From Haloterrigena sp. KLK7 (GTDB lineage: Archaea > Halobacteriota > Halobacteria > Halobacteriales > Natrialbaceae), in contig NZ_CP149787.1 of the NCBI RefSeq assembly GCF_037914945.1, forward strand, positions 3,286,001 through 3,350,000: a DNA stretch of 64,000 nucleotides. The letters are read 5' to 3'. A program made the position numbers and the translations under genes. Below, in pieces: positions 4,350 through 48,013 of this stretch; within the stretch, counting starts at the first letter, position 1; every line of letters begins with the position of its first letter. Below the pieces are notes generated by a model, which saw only the letters and a program-made list of their open reading frames with translations, ran no database searches and was not told the DNA's origin.

Positions 4350-5936
4350 CTACCGCTCGACGAGCGTCCCGCCGGCCAGTCCCTCCCACTCGACGCGGTA
4401 GCCGAGTTCCGAGAGGACCGCGCTCGAGTCGCTGAACCCGGCCGCTTCGAGGACCTCCTCGGCCTCGGCCAGCGCCATTCCGGCCTCGATATCGGCCGCC
4501 AGCGACTCGAGGACGGCCGGTCGAGCGAGCGTCCGCCCCACCCGCTCGTGGTCGGGAAACGCGACGTCGGCCAGCGCGTCCTCGCTGACGCCCCGTCGAG
4601 CGGCGAGGTCCTCGAGGGCGATCACGTCCTCGTCGGGGCGCAGTTCGTCCGGCAGCGCGGCGGCGCTCTCGGCGACGAGTTGACGCTCGTACTCCCGGAG
4701 GACGCCGGCGACGTCCTTCAGCCGCACGTTCCCGGAGTAGGGGATCGCCCGGAAGTCGCGGGCCGCGATCTCCTCGCCGACGCCCAGCGACTCGTCGACG
4801 GCGACGATCAGTTCGACATCCTCGAGGTCCGACAGCTGCGCGAGTTTCTTCTCGACGTACTCGGGCGTCCAGAACCCCATGATCTCGAAGTAGACGCGGA
4901 ACTCGCCGTGGCCTCCCTCGGACGAGTCCGACGAGTCCCCGCGGGCACTGCCCGCGGGACGATAGTCGAACGCGAAGTCGGGGATCATCACCCGCGTTCC
5001 CGTCGCGAGGGGCGCGGGTTCGCGCACGAGGTCCCACTCGAGGTCCAGGTTCGAGAAGCGCGCGGCGAAATCGGCCTCGACGCCGCTGTCGAAGGACACC
5101 TCGGCGACCGGGTCGGCGTCGGGGACGCGGACGGGATCCGCCTGCGAGAGCCGGAGGGTCCGTTCCGTCCCGCGGTCGTCGATCGTCGCCTCGAGACGCC
5201 ACTCGTCGGCTTTCGCGACCGTCCGGAGGAGGCGGGCGAACCGGGTGCCGTACCGGCGGGTCGCCCGGAAGAGGTGGGTCGGCCCGGTGACGATCACCTC
5301 GCGCTCGGCGATGCCGTGATCGGTCACATCACCGCTGTCTTCGCCCTCGAGTCGCCGGATCTCGTACATCAATCGCAGCCGCTTGACCGCCGAGATCAGC
5401 GCCTTCGGATCGCTCGAGCGGACGCGAACTTCGGTGGCGTCGAAGAGCGCGGTCTGTGCCAGCGAGAGGTTGTACTGGGCCACCAACTCGTCCGGCTCCC
5501 ACTGCGACGCCAGTTCGGTGAGGACCTGCCGCTCCTCGAGGTCGGCGTACAGCGCCCCCGCGACGTCGTCGGCCGAGACGCCCAGCGACTCGCCGGCGCG
5601 AACGAGGGCCGTCGCGCGCTCGTCCTCGCTCACGACGCCGACCGCCTCGGCGGCCTCGAAAGCGGCCCGACGAGCGCGTTCGGGATCGATCTCGGCGTCG
5701 GTCTCGAACGTCGCGTCGCGCTCGAGCAGCGCCGACAGCCCCCTGACGAGCTTGAAGTCCTCGGCGTCGGCCTCCAGTTCCGTCAGGGCGGCCTCGAGTT
5801 CCGCGCGGGATTCGCCGACGTGGCCCTGATACGTACCGATGACGCGGGCGGCGAGCGGACGGTGCTCCCGGTCGGCGAACTGGAGGTGGTAGCCGCCGCC
5901 GGCCCGCGAGACGCGGAGCAGGTCCTTGGTCAGCAT
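4350..5936 (-). CDS. DUF790 family nuclease (Bax1-like XPB partner)
   Basis: A 528-residue protein starting MLTKDLLRVSRAGGGY, the conserved opening of the DUF790/Bax1 family. Bax1 is the archaeal nuclease that forms a complex with XPB helicase and incises DNA at bubble structures. The central part has a PD-(D/E)xK-like look, with acidic residues around FRVYFEIMGFWTPEYVEKKL. The frame extends 9 codons upstream, but the Met at 5936 fits family starts. XPB is present in this window (12490-14013, same strand) but about 6.5 kb away rather than adjacent as in many archaea. A DNA-repair role is inferred from the family, not shown by sequence. Confidence 0.8.
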   Translation of the reverse strand: MLTKDLLRVSRAGGGYHLQFADREHRPLAARVIGTYQGHVGESRAELEAALTELEADAEDFKLVRGLSALLERDATFETDAEIDPERARRAAFEAAEAVGVVSEDERATALVRAGESLGVSADDVAGALYADLEERQVLTELASQWEPDELVAQYNLSLAQTALFDATEVRVRSSDPKALISAVKRLRLMYEIRRLEGEDSGDVTDHGIAEREVIVTGPTHLFRATRRYGTRFARLLRTVAKADEWRLEATIDDRGTERTLRLSQADPVRVPDADPVAEVSFDSGVEADFAARFSNLDLEWDLVREPAPLATGTRVMIPDFAFDYRPAGSARGDSSDSSEGGHGEFRVYFEIMGFWTPEYVEKKLAQLSDLEDVELIVAVDESLGVGEEIAARDFRAIPYSGNVRLKDVAGVLREYERQLVAESAAALPDELRPDEDVIALEDLAARRGVSEDALADVAFPDHERVGRTLARPAVLESLAADIEAGMALAEAEEVLEAAGFSDSSAVLSELGYRVEWEGLAGGTLVER

Positions 5937-42524: not shown

Positions 42525-44282
42525 ATGGCTGAGGACCTCAACTGGGCGGTTGGAGGCGAGGCCGGGGACGGTATCGACTCCACGGGTAAGATCTTCGCTC
42601 AGGCACTCGCTCGAGCCGGACGGCACGTATTCACGTCGAAAGACTTCGCGTCGCGTATCCGCGGCGGCTACACGGCCTACAAGATTCGGACCTCCGTCGA
42701 GGAGGTCCAGAGCGTCGTCGATCGCCTGGACATTCTGGTCGCGCTCACGCAGCGAACCATCGACGAGAACCTCGACGAACTCCACGAGGGGAGCGCCATT
42801 ATTTACGACGGTGAGCGCTCCTGGGAGGCCGAGATTCCCGACGAGATGACGGCGGTCGACGTTCCGCTGAAGTCGCTGGCCGAGGACGCCGGCGGCGCGA
42901 TCATGCGCAACATCGTCGCGCTCGGCGCCGCGTGTAAGATCACCGGCTTCGACGTCGAGTACCTGGACGAGGCCCTCGAGAAGCGCTTCGGCGGCAAGGG
43001 CTCGCAGATCGTCGAGAACAACAAGGAGGCCGCTCGCCTCGGCCAGGAGTACGTCGAGGAGAACTACGACCTCGATCACCTCGGCTACAACGTCGAGACG
43101 ACGGACAACGACTACGTCCTGCTCAACGGCAACGAGGCCGTCGGCATGGGCGCGATCGCGGCCGGCTGCCGGTTCTACTCCGGCTACCCGATCACGCCCG
43201 CGACGTCGATCATGGAGTACCTGACGGGCCGGATCGAGGACTACGGCGGTCACGTCGTCCAGGCCGAAGACGAGCTGTCGGCGATCAACATGGCCCTGGG
43301 CGCCGCGCGGTCCGGCGCTCGAGCCATGACCGCGACGTCCGGCGCCGGGATCGACCTGATGACCGAGACGTTCGGGCTGGTCGCGACCAGCGAGACGCCG
43401 CTGGTCATCGCCGACGTCCAGCGTTCGGGCCCCTCGACGGGGATGCCGACGAAGCAGGAGCAGGGCGACCTCAACATGGCGCTGTACGGCGGCCACGGCG
43501 AGGTGCCGCGGTTCGTCATCACGCCGACGTCGATCACCGAGTGTTTCTGGAAGACCGTCGAGGCGTTCAACCTCGCCGAGAAGTACCAGACGCCGGTCTT
43601 CCTGGTCTCGGACCTGGCGATGTCCGTCACCGAGCAGACGTTCCCGCCGGAGGCCTTCGACATGAGCGAGGTCGAGATCGACCGCGGCAAGCTCGTCGAC
43701 GAGGACGAGGTCGACGAGTGGCTCGACGAACAGGGCCACTTCCGCGCCCACGCCGTCACCGACGACGGCGTCAGCCCGCGTGCCATCCCCGGCACGATCG
43801 ACGGTGCGCACATGTCCACCGGCCTCGAGCACGACGAGCTCGGTCGCCGGACCGAGGACCAGGACGAACGCGTCCAGCAGGTCGACAAGCGCTACCGGAA
43901 GGTCGAGACCGCCCAGGAGGAAGAGGACTGGGACTATCGCGAGTTCGGCGACGAAGACGCCGACAACCTCATCCTCTCGTGGGGATCGAACGAGGGCGCG
44001 CTCGTCGAGGCGCTCGACTACCTCGAGGAGGACGGCATCGACGTCCGCGTGATCTCGGTGCCCTACATCTTCCCGCGGCCCGACCTGTCCGACGAGATCG
44101 AGGCCGCCGACGACGTGATCGTCGTCGAGTGTAACGCGACCGGCCAGTTCGCCGACCTGATCGAACACGACGCACTTACCCGCGTCAAGCGCATTAACAA
44201 GTATACTGGCGTCCGCTTCAAGGCGGACGAACTCGCCGAACAGATCACCGAACAACTCTCCGCGGAGGTGCCTGCACAATGA
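42525..44282 (+). CDS. korA: 2-oxoacid:ferredoxin oxidoreductase subunit alpha (gamma/alpha fusion), probably KorA
   Basis: A 585-residue protein with the gamma domain first (GGEAGDGIDSTGKIFAQALA near residue 8, then SKDFASRIRGGYTAYKIR) and the alpha domain from about residue 200 (NEAVGMGAIAAGCRFYSGYPI, then PATSIMEYL). This fused form is typical of haloarchaea. The enzyme oxidises a 2-oxoacid with CoA and ferredoxin. From memory the lengths of both chains (585 and 287) fit the halobacterial 2-oxoglutarate enzyme better than the pyruvate enzyme. Substrate choice is not provable here. The stop overlaps the next start by ATGA. Confidence 0.85.
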   Translation: MAEDLNWAVGGEAGDGIDSTGKIFAQALARAGRHVFTSKDFASRIRGGYTAYKIRTSVEEVQSVVDRLDILVALTQRTIDENLDELHEGSAIIYDGERSWEAEIPDEMTAVDVPLKSLAEDAGGAIMRNIVALGAACKITGFDVEYLDEALEKRFGGKGSQIVENNKEAARLGQEYVEENYDLDHLGYNVETTDNDYVLLNGNEAVGMGAIAAGCRFYSGYPITPATSIMEYLTGRIEDYGGHVVQAEDELSAINMALGAARSGARAMTATSGAGIDLMTETFGLVATSETPLVIADVQRSGPSTGMPTKQEQGDLNMALYGGHGEVPRFVITPTSITECFWKTVEAFNLAEKYQTPVFLVSDLAMSVTEQTFPPEAFDMSEVEIDRGKLVDEDEVDEWLDEQGHFRAHAVTDDGVSPRAIPGTIDGAHMSTGLEHDELGRRTEDQDERVQQVDKRYRKVETAQEEEDWDYREFGDEDADNLILSWGSNEGALVEALDYLEEDGIDVRVISVPYIFPRPDLSDEIEAADDVIVVECNATGQFADLIEHDALTRVKRINKYTGVRFKADELAEQITEQLSAEVPAQ

Positions 44283-45142
44283 GCTCAGACGTACGATTCA
44301 CCGACTTCAAATCCGACAAGCAGCCGACCTGGTGTCCCGGATGCGGCGACTTCGGGACGATGAACGGCATGATGAAAGCCCTCGCCGAAACCGGCAACGA
44401 CCCCGACAACACCTTCGTGGTCGCCGGGATCGGCTGTTCCGGCAAGATCGGGACTTACATGCACAGCTACGCCCTTCACGGGGTCCACGGCCGTGCGCTC
44501 CCGGTCGCCACCGGGGTCAAGATGGCCCGTCCGGACATCGAAGTGATGGCCGCCGGCGGGGACGGTGACGGCTACTCGATCGGTGCCGGTCACTTCGTCC
44601 ACGCCGTCCGCCGAAACGTCGACATGTCCTACGTCGTCATGGACAACCGCATCTACGGGCTGACGAAGGGCCAGGCCTCGCCGACCTCGCGGTCGGACTT
44701 CGAGACCTCGACGACCCCTGAAGGGCCCAAGCAGCCGCCGGTCAATCCGCTGGCCCTCGCGCTGGCCTCGGGTGCCTCCTTCATCGCCCAGTCCTTTGCC
44801 TCCGACGCGCTGCGCCACCAGGAGATCATCCAGGAAGCGATCGAGCACGACGGCTTCGGCTTCGTCAACGTCTTCAGCCCCTGTGTCACGTTCAACGACG
44901 TCGACACCTACGACTACTTCCGCGACAACCTCGTCGACCTCCAGGACGAGGGCCACGATCCGAACGACTACGAGGCCGCCAAGGAAGTCATCCTCGACAG
45001 CGACAAGGAGTACCAGGGCGTCATGTACCAGGACGAGAACTCCGTCCCGTACCACGAGAAACACGGCGTCACTGAGGACATGTCCGAGATTCCCGAGGGC
45101 GCGCCCGAGGACGCGATGGACCTCGTCCGCGAGTTCTACTGA
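44279..45142 (+). CDS. korB: 2-oxoacid:ferredoxin oxidoreductase subunit beta, probably KorB
   Basis: A 287-residue thiamine-diphosphate subunit. The [4Fe-4S]/ThDP start is QPTWCPGCGDFGTMNGMM, followed by GIGCSGKIG with a second ligand Cys and the ThDP-Mg motif AAGGDGDGYSIG through MDNRIYGLTKGQ. A further Cys is in NVFSPCVTFND. With the alpha chain it completes the ferredoxin-dependent oxidoreductase. The ATGA overlap indicates translational coupling. The call as Kor rather than Por rests on length and general similarity only. Confidence 0.85.
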   Translation: MSSDVRFTDFKSDKQPTWCPGCGDFGTMNGMMKALAETGNDPDNTFVVAGIGCSGKIGTYMHSYALHGVHGRALPVATGVKMARPDIEVMAAGGDGDGYSIGAGHFVHAVRRNVDMSYVVMDNRIYGLTKGQASPTSRSDFETSTTPEGPKQPPVNPLALALASGASFIAQSFASDALRHQEIIQEAIEHDGFGFVNVFSPCVTFNDVDTYDYFRDNLVDLQDEGHDPNDYEAAKEVILDSDKEYQGVMYQDENSVPYHEKHGVTEDMSEIPEGAPEDAMDLVREFY

Positions 45143-45167: not shown

Positions 45168-45197
45168 CGCGCGCTACCGGAACAGCAACGGCACTAT

Positions 45198-45229
45198 CAG
45201 TAGTTGGTAATACGGTTTCTTTATTCAGA
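45198..45229 (+). repeat. left inverted repeat of the islet
   Basis: Begins CAGTAGTTGG and ends ATTCAGA. The reverse complement of the sequence at 47083-47114 matches it at 28 of 32 positions. Confidence 0.75.
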
Positions 45230-45453
45230 ATTAGGTGCGAAACTGATATGCCGGATTCGGTAAGTACGTGTGCGTATTGACTGCCGAGGTTCCTACCGGT
45301 TTTCGATAGTGTCTACCGGACCGTACTAAGTGTAGGTTATGCATTGGGCAAGACAATCTAGCGACGGCTGGAAGAAAGGCCATATACACGTCTCACTCTA
45401 TTACATTGAGTTCCGAACAGGATTTAGCTAACGGCTTTATGAACTATTGATTC

Positions 45454-45813
45454 TCAGGAACACTCAAGTTGATCTGATCCGTGCCGTTCCATCCATATCT
45501 CTAGTCCTCGAAAAACTGGCGTGAGATCGTTTACCATTTCTGTTTCTTCGTATTCTACTCGTGGAGGAATTTCGTCGTACTGTGTACGTTCAAGAAACCC
45601 AACTTCGACAAGTTCATCGAGTCGTCGAGAGAGTGTATTCGGCGAAAGTTCGAGCGAATCTTGGAGTTCGCCGAAACGGATCGACTGCTTGTCTGTAGTG
45701 ACAATTTCATTGAGGATTGCTAAGGTATGTGCCTTCCCAAGAAGTGAGAAGAGCGTACTCTCATCAACCCCTTCACCCCGTTTTGATCCTTGACTTCCTT
45801 TGCCCTCGCTCAT
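45454..45813 (-). CDS. HxlR family transcriptional regulator
   Basis: A 119-residue protein from the Met at 45813; the frame is open to 45894 but the family begins near SLLGKAHTLAILNEI. The winged helix shows RFGELQDSLELSPNTLSRRL and VGFLERTQYDEIPPRVEYEE, followed by the HxlR-typical GLEIWMERH. Such regulators often respond to quinones or electrophiles and control a divergent reductase, which is the layout here. A 17-base palindrome (45820-45836) lies directly upstream and is a likely operator. The codon use is less GC-biased than in flanking genes. Confidence 0.88.
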   Translation of the reverse strand: MSEGKGSQGSKRGEGVDESTLFSLLGKAHTLAILNEIVTTDKQSIRFGELQDSLELSPNTLSRRLDELVEVGFLERTQYDEIPPRVEYEETEMVNDLTPVFRGLEIWMERHGSDQLECS

Positions 45814-45819
45814 AGCACC

Positions 45820-45836
45820 ACTACGAAATTCGTAGT
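45820..45836 (-). promoter_or_regulatory. palindromic operator candidate of the HxlR gene
   Basis: ACTACGAAATTCGTAGT is a perfect palindrome with 8-bp arms and one central base. It lies 7-23 bases upstream of the ATG at 45813, over the expected transcription start. This suits autoregulation by the HxlR protein. No second exact copy was found before the divergent reductase. Confidence 0.6.
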
Positions 45837-46030
45837 AATAGATGTTCCGAAGAGGAGTATCCTCAGTTGGGATACTACAAGAGGAGCAAGCCACGTACTT
45901 CAGGTTTCAATTGAGACGGGTATGGATTGATACGTTGATCCCCTCACTTCCACTCTCGGTAGTAGCAACCAGACTCCTAACTTGGTAGCTTTTCACGTCC
46001 CCACTCATGGGCTAGAACGGGAGACTATTG

Positions 46031-46819
46031 ATGAAAATCGGAATGATTGGCGCAGGGAATGTCGGGAGTACAGCCGCTCAGAACTTCGTTGAAGCAGGCC
46101 ACGAGGTTATGATTAGCAATTCTCGGGGACCAGAAACACTCACCGATCTCGTTGACGATCTGGGAAGCAACGCTCATGCGGGGACCGTCTCTGAGGCAGC
46201 CGATTTCGGCGAAGTCGTCATGGAGGCGATTCCGTTCAATGCATACAAATCCCTCCCTGCGGACATTCTCAGTGATAAGATCGTTATCAGTGCCTCAAAT
46301 TATTATCCGGGGCGTGATGGACTAACCGACGTAGGGAAGACACATACGGACCTCATTGCGGATCATCTCGAAGACTCAAGAGTCATCAAGGCATTCAATT
46401 CTATTTATTGGGAAAACCTCCGAGACGGACAACGGCTTGAGGCCGATCCGGATGATCGTTTTGCGATATTTATCGCTGGGGATGATGATGAGGCGAAAAG
46501 TGTAGTTTCGAGTCTTATCGAAGATATTGGATTCACTCCTGTGGATACAGGTCTACTTACTGAGGGAGGCCGTCACATACAACCGGGTTCGCCGATCTAT
46601 ACTGGCTCACTGACCGCGAGTGAGGCACGGACACGGTTAGCGGCACTCAAAGCGACTGTGGCTGCATATGAAAACGGCTATTACAGCCCCTCGCAGGAAG
46701 TCACAATCCAAGAACTAGCTAATGAATTAGACATGAGTGAAGAGTCTCTCTCAGAACATCTTCGTCGGGGGACAGAACAACTCATCAATCAATATCTTAA
46801 GTCATTCCCCTTTAGTTAA
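46031..46819 (+). CDS. NADP/F420-type reductase fused to a C-terminal HTH_10 domain
   Basis: A 262-residue protein. The N-terminal ~200 residues are an F420-dependent NADP reductase-like Rossmann domain: MKIGMIGAGNVGSTAAQNF, SNSRGPETLTDL, EAIPFNAYKSLP, KAFNSIYWEN and PIYTGSLTASEAR. The last ~55 residues (ATVAAYENGYYSPSQEV, then TIQELANELDMSEESLSEHL, then RRGTEQLINQYL) match the HTH_10 domain of Bat-like haloarchaeal regulators. An enzyme ending in a DNA-binding domain is unusual and suggests a redox-sensing regulator. The ATG at 46031 is used. It is divergent from the HxlR gene. Confidence 0.82.
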   Translation: MKIGMIGAGNVGSTAAQNFVEAGHEVMISNSRGPETLTDLVDDLGSNAHAGTVSEAADFGEVVMEAIPFNAYKSLPADILSDKIVISASNYYPGRDGLTDVGKTHTDLIADHLEDSRVIKAFNSIYWENLRDGQRLEADPDDRFAIFIAGDDDEAKSVVSSLIEDIGFTPVDTGLLTEGGRHIQPGSPIYTGSLTASEARTRLAALKATVAAYENGYYSPSQEVTIQELANELDMSEESLSEHLRRGTEQLINQYLKSFPFS

Positions 46820-46860
46820 GACTCACAAGCTCTACGGTTGAAGTCTATGCCGTCATGGGA

Positions 46861-46965
46861 TTCACCAGAGCCGAACTGGCCAATGAGCTGAATATGAGTA
46901 AATAGTCAATCTCATAATATCTTCGGCAAGGAACGGAGCAACTCATCAATCAATATCTTGATTGA
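46861..46965 (+). pseudogene. decayed second copy of the HTH_10 tail
   Basis: Translation from 46861 reads FTRAELANELNMSK, stop, SIS, stop, then YLRQGTEQLINQYLD and stop. It is clearly similar to the C-terminus of the preceding gene, but has in-frame stops at 46903 and 46915. A stretch including CTCATCAATCAATATCTT is identical at DNA level in both copies. It is the residue of a tandem duplication or of a second family member. Confidence 0.75.
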
Positions 46966-47204
46966 GAACCTATTTCCAGCCACTAATAATCCGTTATTAT
47001 CCAATTTTAACAACTATCGAACAGGTGGATGGCTACTCCGGTAACGCTTTCACCTGTACTTAACGCGACTTTCACGACCACCTCTGAATAAAGAAACCGT
47101 GCTACTATCTACTGCTCTGGCGAGAGCGGGAGCGGAAACGATTGGGGATCGGTCGTCGAGCGGAATCGCTCGGACTCGAGTCCGAACACCGAGACGCAGC
47201 CCGA
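46966..47204. other. islet right end and junction to GC-rich DNA
   Basis: AT-rich sequence with no gene up to the right inverted repeat at 47083-47114, then about 90 bases of ordinary GC-rich DNA up to the end of the DUF6517-like gene. Confidence 0.5.
47083..47114 (-). repeat. right inverted repeat of the islet
   Basis: Reads TCTGAATAAAGAAACCGT on the plus strand (18 bases perfect to the left end in reverse complement) and ends with CTACTG, which pairs with the CAGTAG of the left end. Confidence 0.75.
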
Positions 47205-47861
47205 TCAGACGGGGTGTTCGACGGACTCCATCAGTTCCTCGACGGTCGCCGACTCGGCGGCGAGCGCGGCGGGATGACTGCCGACCAGCACCAGCCGATC
47301 GCCCTCGTGAGCGAACGACGTCACCGCGAGGTCGACGTCGATCCGTTCGCCCTCGAACGTCGTCGTCCCCTCGAAGACGTCGACCGACCGTCCGTCGCCG
47401 AGGATATCGAGGCCGAACGACTCCCGATGCGTGAGGTTCTCGATCGAGACGCCGCTGTGCTCGAGTTCGCCACCGTACTCCGAGAGCAGGTCCTCGTTGC
47501 TCAGTTCGCCGATCGGATTGAACGACCGGCCCGCGACCGAGACGTCCGGAACCGAGATCGCGGCGAAGGCACAGCCCTCGCTCGCGGTGCCGCGGAATTC
47601 GATCTCCTTCGTGTACGTCGAGGTCCAGACGGTCGCTTCGACGTCGCGCTCGACGCCGACGTCGACGCGCTCCTCGATCGATCGCTGCTCGATCGCGCGT
47701 TCCTCGTAGCCGGCCGTTTCGAGCGCGCTGTCGGTCGGTGCCGCGCGTTCGGCCGCGACCTCGAGCGGGGCGTTTCCGAGTGCGAAATCGAGACAGCCGG
47801 CAGCGAGCGCGAGCGAGCCGGTCACTCCGGCCGCGAGAAGCGTTCGTCGAGACGTACTCAT
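47205..47861 (-). CDS. lipoprotein, DUF6517-like
   Basis: A 218-residue protein. The N-terminus is a Tat-like signal with lipobox (TSRRTLLAAGVTGS, then LALAAGC with Cys23), so it should be lipid-anchored outside the membrane. The mature part is beta-rich with RFSFNPIGELS-like and GTTTFEGERIDVDLAVTSFA segments. From memory this resembles the haloarchaeal DUF6517 family, but the match is by pattern. The ATG at 47861 starts the signal peptide; the longer frame is rejected. Confidence 0.65.
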   Translation of the reverse strand: MSTSRRTLLAAGVTGSLALAAGCLDFALGNAPLEVAAERAAPTDSALETAGYEERAIEQRSIEERVDVGVERDVEATVWTSTYTKEIEFRGTASEGCAFAAISVPDVSVAGRSFNPIGELSNEDLLSEYGGELEHSGVSIENLTHRESFGLDILGDGRSVDVFEGTTTFEGERIDVDLAVTSFAHEGDRLVLVGSHPAALAAESATVEELMESVEHPV

Positions 47862-48013
47862 TATCCTGACCTTCGCCAGCATCCGTATATTCCTTGTGGC
47901 AGGCCGGCTTCGGCTGTCAGCGCGGCGAAATGAGGCGAATCGCCGTGTCCCGTTGCTCGGTGGCGACGGCGAACACAGCAAGCGTTATCGGGGTCGACCC
48001 CACCCGTTTAGGC

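Follow-up and report, generated by a model that had tools for sequence, protein, structure and literature searches.

A transposase-free gene pair between family inverted repeats in Haloterrigena: a probable archaeal counterpart of mobile insertion cassettes

We analysed a 64,000-nt stretch of the genome of Haloterrigena sp. KLK7 (NZ_CP149787.1, positions 3,286,001-3,350,000; hereafter the window, with G000 denoting the genome itself), in which a 1917-bp element at 45198-47114 carries two open genes between inverted repeats. We think it likely that this element is a passenger-gene cassette, an archaeal counterpart of the bacterial mobile insertion cassettes (MICs), moved in trans by a long ISH3-like transposase. 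Two ends of one haloarchaeal family (consensus CAGTAGWTRGTARYRCGRTTTCTTTATTCAG) would enclose a single pair of divergent genes without a transposase; the long ISH3-like DDE transposase would be supplied by a larger transposon that is present in that cell and bounded by the same ends; and this enzyme would excise or copy the cassette and integrate it at an NTAN target, duplicating 4 bp. Judged by sequence comparison, the components of such a system are in evidence: the ends are dispersed and often flanked by 4-bp duplications, sites are found empty in relatives, the cargo is interchangeable, and large transposons exist that have a transposase gene, ends nearly identical to these and duplications of equal length. 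The action of that transposase in trans on the cassettes appears to be the mechanism best supported. A preliminary description of the same DNA had proposed a mobile cargo unit here; our analysis confirms what it observed and supports how it interpreted the islet.

The architecture of the element bears out that description to the base. The left and right 32-bp repeats (45198-45229 on the plus strand, 47083-47114 on the minus strand) match at 28 of 32 positions, the inner 18 bp perfectly, and a scan with their shared consensus, allowing up to three mismatches, finds these two places only in the window and matches in 0 of 100 shuffles. The block is indeed AT-richer than its surroundings and differs from them in codon usage: GC content is 46.9% within the element and 65.8% in the 1.5 kb on each side, and GC at third codon positions is 0.39 in the first gene and 0.46 in the second, as against 0.84-0.91 in four neighbouring genes. 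The first gene (45454-45813, minus strand) encodes a 119-aa HxlR/MarR-type winged-helix regulator (Pfam HxlR, E 5.7e-14); its start is the one used in the annotated copies L237-L240, and the open frame reaches 45894. The name of redox regulator that it had been given stands as a family resemblance only, the best NCBIfam match being RrpB at 43 bits with a cut-off of 175. Divergent from it lies a gene (46031-46819, plus strand) for a 262-aa protein with an NpdG-like NAD(P)/F420 oxidoreductase domain (Pfam F420_oxidored, 1.7e-20) fused to a C-terminal HTH_10 domain (4.7e-11); the protein may be a transcription factor coupled to an enzyme activity. In four annotated plasmid copies the regulator coding sequence is 360 nt long and the fusion is represented by a gene of similar length (789 nt in three, 774 nt in Halobacterium hubeiense).

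The preliminary description had listed a regulator, a divergent enzyme and a gene remnant, with no transposase. The gene pair stands, as does the want of a transposase open reading frame (ORF) inside the element, where, besides the two genes, the one ORF reaching 85 aa is of 90 aa and runs antisense to the regulator. The remnant does not stand as a separate gene: the segment at 46873-46959 (plus strand) is a 78% direct repeat of 46712-46798, the HTH_10 region at the 3' end of the reductase gene. Since the copies in H. hubeiense, G003 and G007 (L240, L227, L228) have this segment once, it reads as a partial tandem duplication.

The ends are by no means confined to this locus. The full consensus is present in 93 of 293 genomes drawn from the order and in 19 of 41 genomes comprising relatives and the strain itself, with a reversed-pattern control of 0 in both sets. 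Scanning the GTDB genome collection with a 17-base core returned 117 stretches: in many from bacteria the match is confined to the core, as by chance, and in most from haloarchaea it extends on the outer side into CAGTAG...GTA..AC. G000 holds eight ends at three mismatches or fewer, among them two further paired elements: one of 1295 bp with an EamA transporter gene, flanks GTAT/GTAT and one diverged end (L158:645-1939, on G000:C2), and one of 432 bp with flanks ATAA/ATAA (L162:533-964, on G000:C1 at 1339832).

Comparison between genomes shows that elements with these ends transpose. A census of 82 distinct, adjacent, convergent, non-nested pairs, 109 bp to 10.1 kb long, gave identical 4-bp flanks in 43, a three-base match in 16 and two or fewer matching bases in 23; shuffled right flanks yielded a mean of 4.4 identical pairs and a maximum of 12 in 5000 trials. 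The loci had been fetched mostly for holding an end or a transposase and are a non-random sample, flank identity not being a selection criterion. TA is central in 133 of 164 flanks, which defines an NTAN-type target. Presence also varies among close relatives, as two sites that differ between genomes indicate: in G002 the element L156 has CTAA on both sides where G001 has CTAA once, and at G000:C1:1339832 the flanks adjoin each other in G002, G004, G005 and G007, and in G001 and G003 some 400 bp separate them and a family end is present (at this site, that of L162, gaps in the alignments hid the 4-bp target of G002 and G004, and presence or absence alone was used).

The window element lies between korB (44279-45142, plus strand), whose stop codon is 55 bp from the left repeat, and a lipoprotein-like gene (47205-47864, minus strand; start picked by eye, 3' end conserved in G001-G004). 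This junction is empty in the congeners G001, G003 and G004, so the block is not present in all relatives. Of the two outcomes that the preliminary description had named as fatal to its proposal, ends restricted to this locus and a block shared by every relative, neither was obtained. At the identical nucleotide G002 holds a different element, of 2643 bp, with a perfect CTAT/CTAT duplication, the same orientation as the window unit (apparently, from subterminal sequences) and genes for a Cys/Met pyridoxal-phosphate enzyme, a MOSC protein and a monooxygenase-like protein. The preliminary description had seen no target duplication at the window element, a statement that we would correct: its flanks, CTAT on the left (45194-45197) and CTCT on the right (47115-47118), match at three of four bases, the duplication length of the family is 4 bp, and, compared with CTAT in G002 and CCGT at the empty site, the right flank would be a degenerate duplication of the left.

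Two independent insertions at the korB site would be the simplest history on present sequences. The serious rival, which we nevertheless hold to be unlikely, is that an ancestral element at this site had its cargo swapped in one lineage by homologous recombination between the conserved ends. The insertions in G000 and G002 do share a nucleotide, and in the five genomes aligned there CTAT occurs only in these two, with CCGT in the three others. Exchange between ends also has a parallel in three elements at unrelated sites (L006:2375-3133, L054:2178-2859 and L088:2272-2949, with duplications ATAT, CTAC and GTAG), which have doubled ends, an inner pair within an outer pair, and combine common ends of about 200 bp and 185 bp with different middles. 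By korA-korB identity and tree, however, G002 groups with the empty G001 and G003, and G000 falls outside, so that cargo exchange would require several losses or a transfer. The end sequences of the two korB insertions differ, moreover, and those of the window unit are closest to the ends of other elements: its first 70 bp have 91% identity to one end of L108, an element of Natrinema zhouii, and its last 75 bp likewise 91% to an end (L210) of Haloterrigena turkmenica, G004, on which grounds ends and cargo look reshuffled. Two hits at one place are themselves not improbable, because the GC-rich intergenic stretch of 145 bp offers two NTAN sites only. A role of the korB site as a site-specific attachment site is not favoured either, the duplication being of the general NTAN type with two such sites in the 145 bp. 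The window copy thus presumably came by transposition and not by recombination at a pre-existing element.

The cargo itself is found well beyond Haloterrigena. Copies of the gene pair lie on plasmids of Halalkalicoccus (96.6% DNA identity), Natrinema sp. DC36 (95.6%), Halostagnicola larsenii (97.3%) and H. hubeiense (87.3%), and in the genomes of G003 and G007 (88% and 78% protein identity); a 55% relative with an internal stop occurs in G011. The proposal that the pair moves between haloarchaea thus holds, to judge by the 87-97% DNA identity on plasmids of four genera, and the pair does move between genera. As each of the four plasmid copies lacks at least one end, it may also travel by other routes. 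Of these copies, that of DC36 (L238) retains a right end at 23/31, that of Halalkalicoccus (L237) shares the segment 45271-45388 on the left and shows a possible trace of the left end, and that of G003 (L227) lies some 2.2 kb from an end that faces inward.

Other paired elements carry different genes. A Pfam scan (E 0.01) of 20 ORFs from 17 of them gave a match for 12 and none for eight; the matches include the EamA transporter, FkbM methyltransferase, GNAT acetyltransferase, Sensor, BAT/HTH_10, SPW, a weak HTH_11 and tRNA-synt_1b. The last belongs to a possible cassette (L007:1303-2872) with a 327-aa TrpRS/TyrRS-like protein, a weak right end (22/31) and flanks TTAA/ATAA (3/4), and L245 carries a HEPN_Apea protein with a flank match of 2/4. 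L079 and L251, at unrelated sites, have an interior in common, 85% identical over 812 bp.

The candidate helpers are seven large elements (4.9-10.1 kb), found as end pairs more than 4 kb apart in a long-range pair search. All have CAGT at both ends, six have perfect 4-bp duplications, and all seven hold a homolog of the 618-aa ISH3-like transposase of L244, with 64-100% identity over the main aligned part. These transposases are 600-630 aa long, those of L302 and L303 aligning in pieces, as if frameshifted; those of L243 and L244 match Pfam DDE_Tnp_1 and score 119 and 131 bits with the NCBIfam ISH3 model, below its cut-off of 225, and the motif YRRRWGIET[GD]FR is present in all five that were examined. 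At their right ends L243 and L244 agree with both ends of the window element in 28-30 of 31 positions; L301, of the other subtype, has a right end less similar to them (21-23/31). The short elements L246, L252 and L290 retain scraps of large-transposon genes (transposase and/or RAMP), which tie short and long elements together.

Several observations weigh against a cassette moved in trans. A search of G000 for a long ISH3-like transposase gave none at E 1e-20, with 4 of 9 candidates scored, and one with the ISH3 model (6 of 6 scored) gave a single 420-aa ORF, above the cut-off, and two fragments only; the helper would accordingly have been met in another host or lost. A search at up to four mismatches through L263-L323, 61 loci that cover transposase genes or the DNA around them, did not find one of the two cassette subterminal types, GTGAAACTCGCGTTCAGTACAG. 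A perfect duplication is absent from 39 of the 82 pairs, 23 of these matching at two bases or fewer, and the window's own is imperfect. L146 and L164 occupy one orthologous site, and some insertions are therefore merely inherited. Finally, both ends are present in none of the seven other cargo copies examined.

Two other sources of the ends were considered and set aside. The genome's own ISH3 is rejected as helper, there being no end above 20/31 in the 4-6 kb around its ORF and the two fragments. Around twenty further transposase genes, whose products are 23-39% identical to that of L244 where aligned, a search for CRGT inverted repeats gave 17/26 at best, which we take as chance; three of these loci (L300, L316 and L319) have one family end beside transposase or RAMP genes, with no partner recognised.

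Some of these points could also describe a decayed transposon, once autonomous, that lost its transposase by deletion, retained its passenger genes and is now a relic outside any working system. The imperfect duplication, the degenerate 3' gene duplicate and the failure to find a long helper in G000 fit such a relic, and deletion derivatives of large transposons exist (L246, L252, L290). Against it, the ORFs of the window element are the gene pair and an antisense ORF, with no transposase ORF found, and our set commonly shows units that have perfect duplications and open cargo genes but no recognised transposase ORF. We rate this account as improbable, slightly more so than cargo exchange. Disfavoured most strongly, and in our estimate very improbable, is a pair of separate short family elements flanking DNA acquired laterally by another route such as a plasmid: short elements (110-500 bp) with these ends are common and one or both ends are missing from all seven other cargo copies examined, but the window unit has a single inward-pointing end per side, both flanks fit the same 4-bp empty site, and the orthologous G002 unit is a single element with a perfect duplication. 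A passenger-gene cassette moved by an ISH3-like transposase remains the account that we prefer.

Six of the seven large elements (not L299) also carry Cas7-like and Cas5-like genes of the HRAMP type, with PADLOC matches to Csm3 and Cmr3 models at 1.1e-5 to 7.5e-7. These transposons are L244:1533-7873, L301:4961-11429, L302:4461-11734, L303:614-10704, L322:1381-7949 and L243:2003-8630, five of the six with perfect 4-bp duplications. The Cas7-like protein, used as query, has matches in 72 of 293 genomes, and we compared 40 of the 94 matches listed; these comprise 26 near the transposon form and 14 distant ones. In the near clade a family end lies within about 110 bp beyond the Cas5-like gene in 12 of the 26 loci, one more, L354, has its end on the side of the transposase, and a homolog of the long transposase occurs in eight; in the distant clade (L371-L384) neither a family end nor such a transposase was found in any of the 14 loci. 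Half of the near clade has no end at 23/31, and these members may possibly have diverged ends or be stable loci. Inside the HRAMP transposon L243, beside the RAMP genes, we also observed a TnpB-like protein (4593-5255; Cas12f1-like TNB domain, OrfB_IS605 below cut-off). It is tempting, as a decidedly speculative idea, to see cassettes and HRAMP transposons as one system, in which an array-less module of Cas7/Cas5-like proteins derived from type III would guide or protect transposition of the helper, analogous to CRISPR-associated transposons, and the helper transposase would also move the cassette pool across genera.

At the other end of the size range are elements of 109-110 bp with family outer ends and one diverged arm (L248, L247, L055, L093 and L254), several of which have perfect 4-bp duplications. 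Four elements of about 110 bp lie in L248, within 18 kb of one genome (2013-2122, 6397-6506, 16021-16130 and 16359-16468). As to a virus as a possible vehicle, one viral contig matches the end pattern, with a single weak end (24/31) whose sequence is identical to an end in L018.

If this account is right, haloarchaea hold a pool of single- or few-gene cassettes under one transposon-end family, comparable in effect to bacterial MICs. It would supply a concrete route of gene exchange in haloarchaea and help to identify islets that are small, AT-rich and strain-specific. It would also mean that at least one HRAMP clade is cargo or machinery of a transposon, so that HRAMP function could be tested in a transposition setting.

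Among transposase-free elements known from haloarchaea, the cited passages on Haloquadratum describe miniature inverted-repeat transposable elements (MITEs), SMRs and ISH2-type elements with terminal repeats, the MITEs being said to depend on a transposase supplied in trans; of the five MITE families, four are non-coding and below 500 bp, the longest element being about 520 bp (PMC3119063). At 1917 bp and with a complete regulator/enzyme pair, the window unit differs from these short, non-coding elements. SMR-A, of about 110 bp, is similar in size to the shortest elements of our family; SMRs are said there to cause no target duplication (PMC3119063), whereas several of our 110-bp elements have one.

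HRAMP is described in the passages cited as an array-less, defence-like system with nucleases (PMC8730458, PMC12669027). The Cas7-like and Cas5-like genes of that system are also those of the large relatives of the window unit; the lack of an array is a published trait, no CRISPR array search of our loci having been made. One clade here differs in adjoining terminal repeats and often a transposase, and the window unit itself has no HRAMP genes. Those HRAMP passages do not mention transposon ends, and a clade that is a passenger or part of a transposon is absent from them; the original HRAMP description lies outside our survey, and the novelty of the association is unproven.

The ISH3 family is defined, in the part of the source cited, by CRGT ends, a direct repeat of 4-5 bp, a Y-(2)-R-(3)-E-(3)-R motif, archaeal hosts and a length of 1225-1500 bp (PMC2266710, Table 1). 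The large transposons resemble it in their CAGT ends (7/7), 4-bp duplication (6/7) and motif (5/5 examined), and differ in length (4.9-10.1 kb), in a transposase of about 610 aa and, for the two scanned, in model scores (131 and 119 bits) that fall short of the 225-bit cut-off. They resemble ISH3, yet we do not file them as members, and the window unit differs further in having no transposase at all.

The closest parallel lies in bacteria. The preliminary description had taken a unit of this form to be new; according to the cited passages, the kind is known as the MIC, represented by MIC231A1 of Bacillus cereus and mic-qnrD, with two inverted repeats, one or more passenger genes, no transposase and a target duplication (PMC3913671), and the window unit would be an archaeal variant with ISH3-like ends. 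Our literature search found no paper joining haloarchaea with the term mobile insertion cassette, and nothing in wider listings that pointed to such a unit. The window element has two inverted repeats (28/32) and passenger genes, and no transposase was found in it; apart from the imperfect duplication of the window copy, it has the features of a MIC that can be tested. MIC231A1 is moved in trans by the IS231A transposase, as the same passages report (PMC3913671), and transposons with near-identical ends and their own DDE transposase likewise occur in other haloarchaea, none having been found in G000. The differences are those of a separate family: it is haloarchaeal, with CAGT ends of the ISH3 type, a 4-bp NTAN duplication and many kinds of cargo under one end family, and its putative helper, which would move the window unit in trans, is a transposon of 5-10 kb, often with HRAMP genes.

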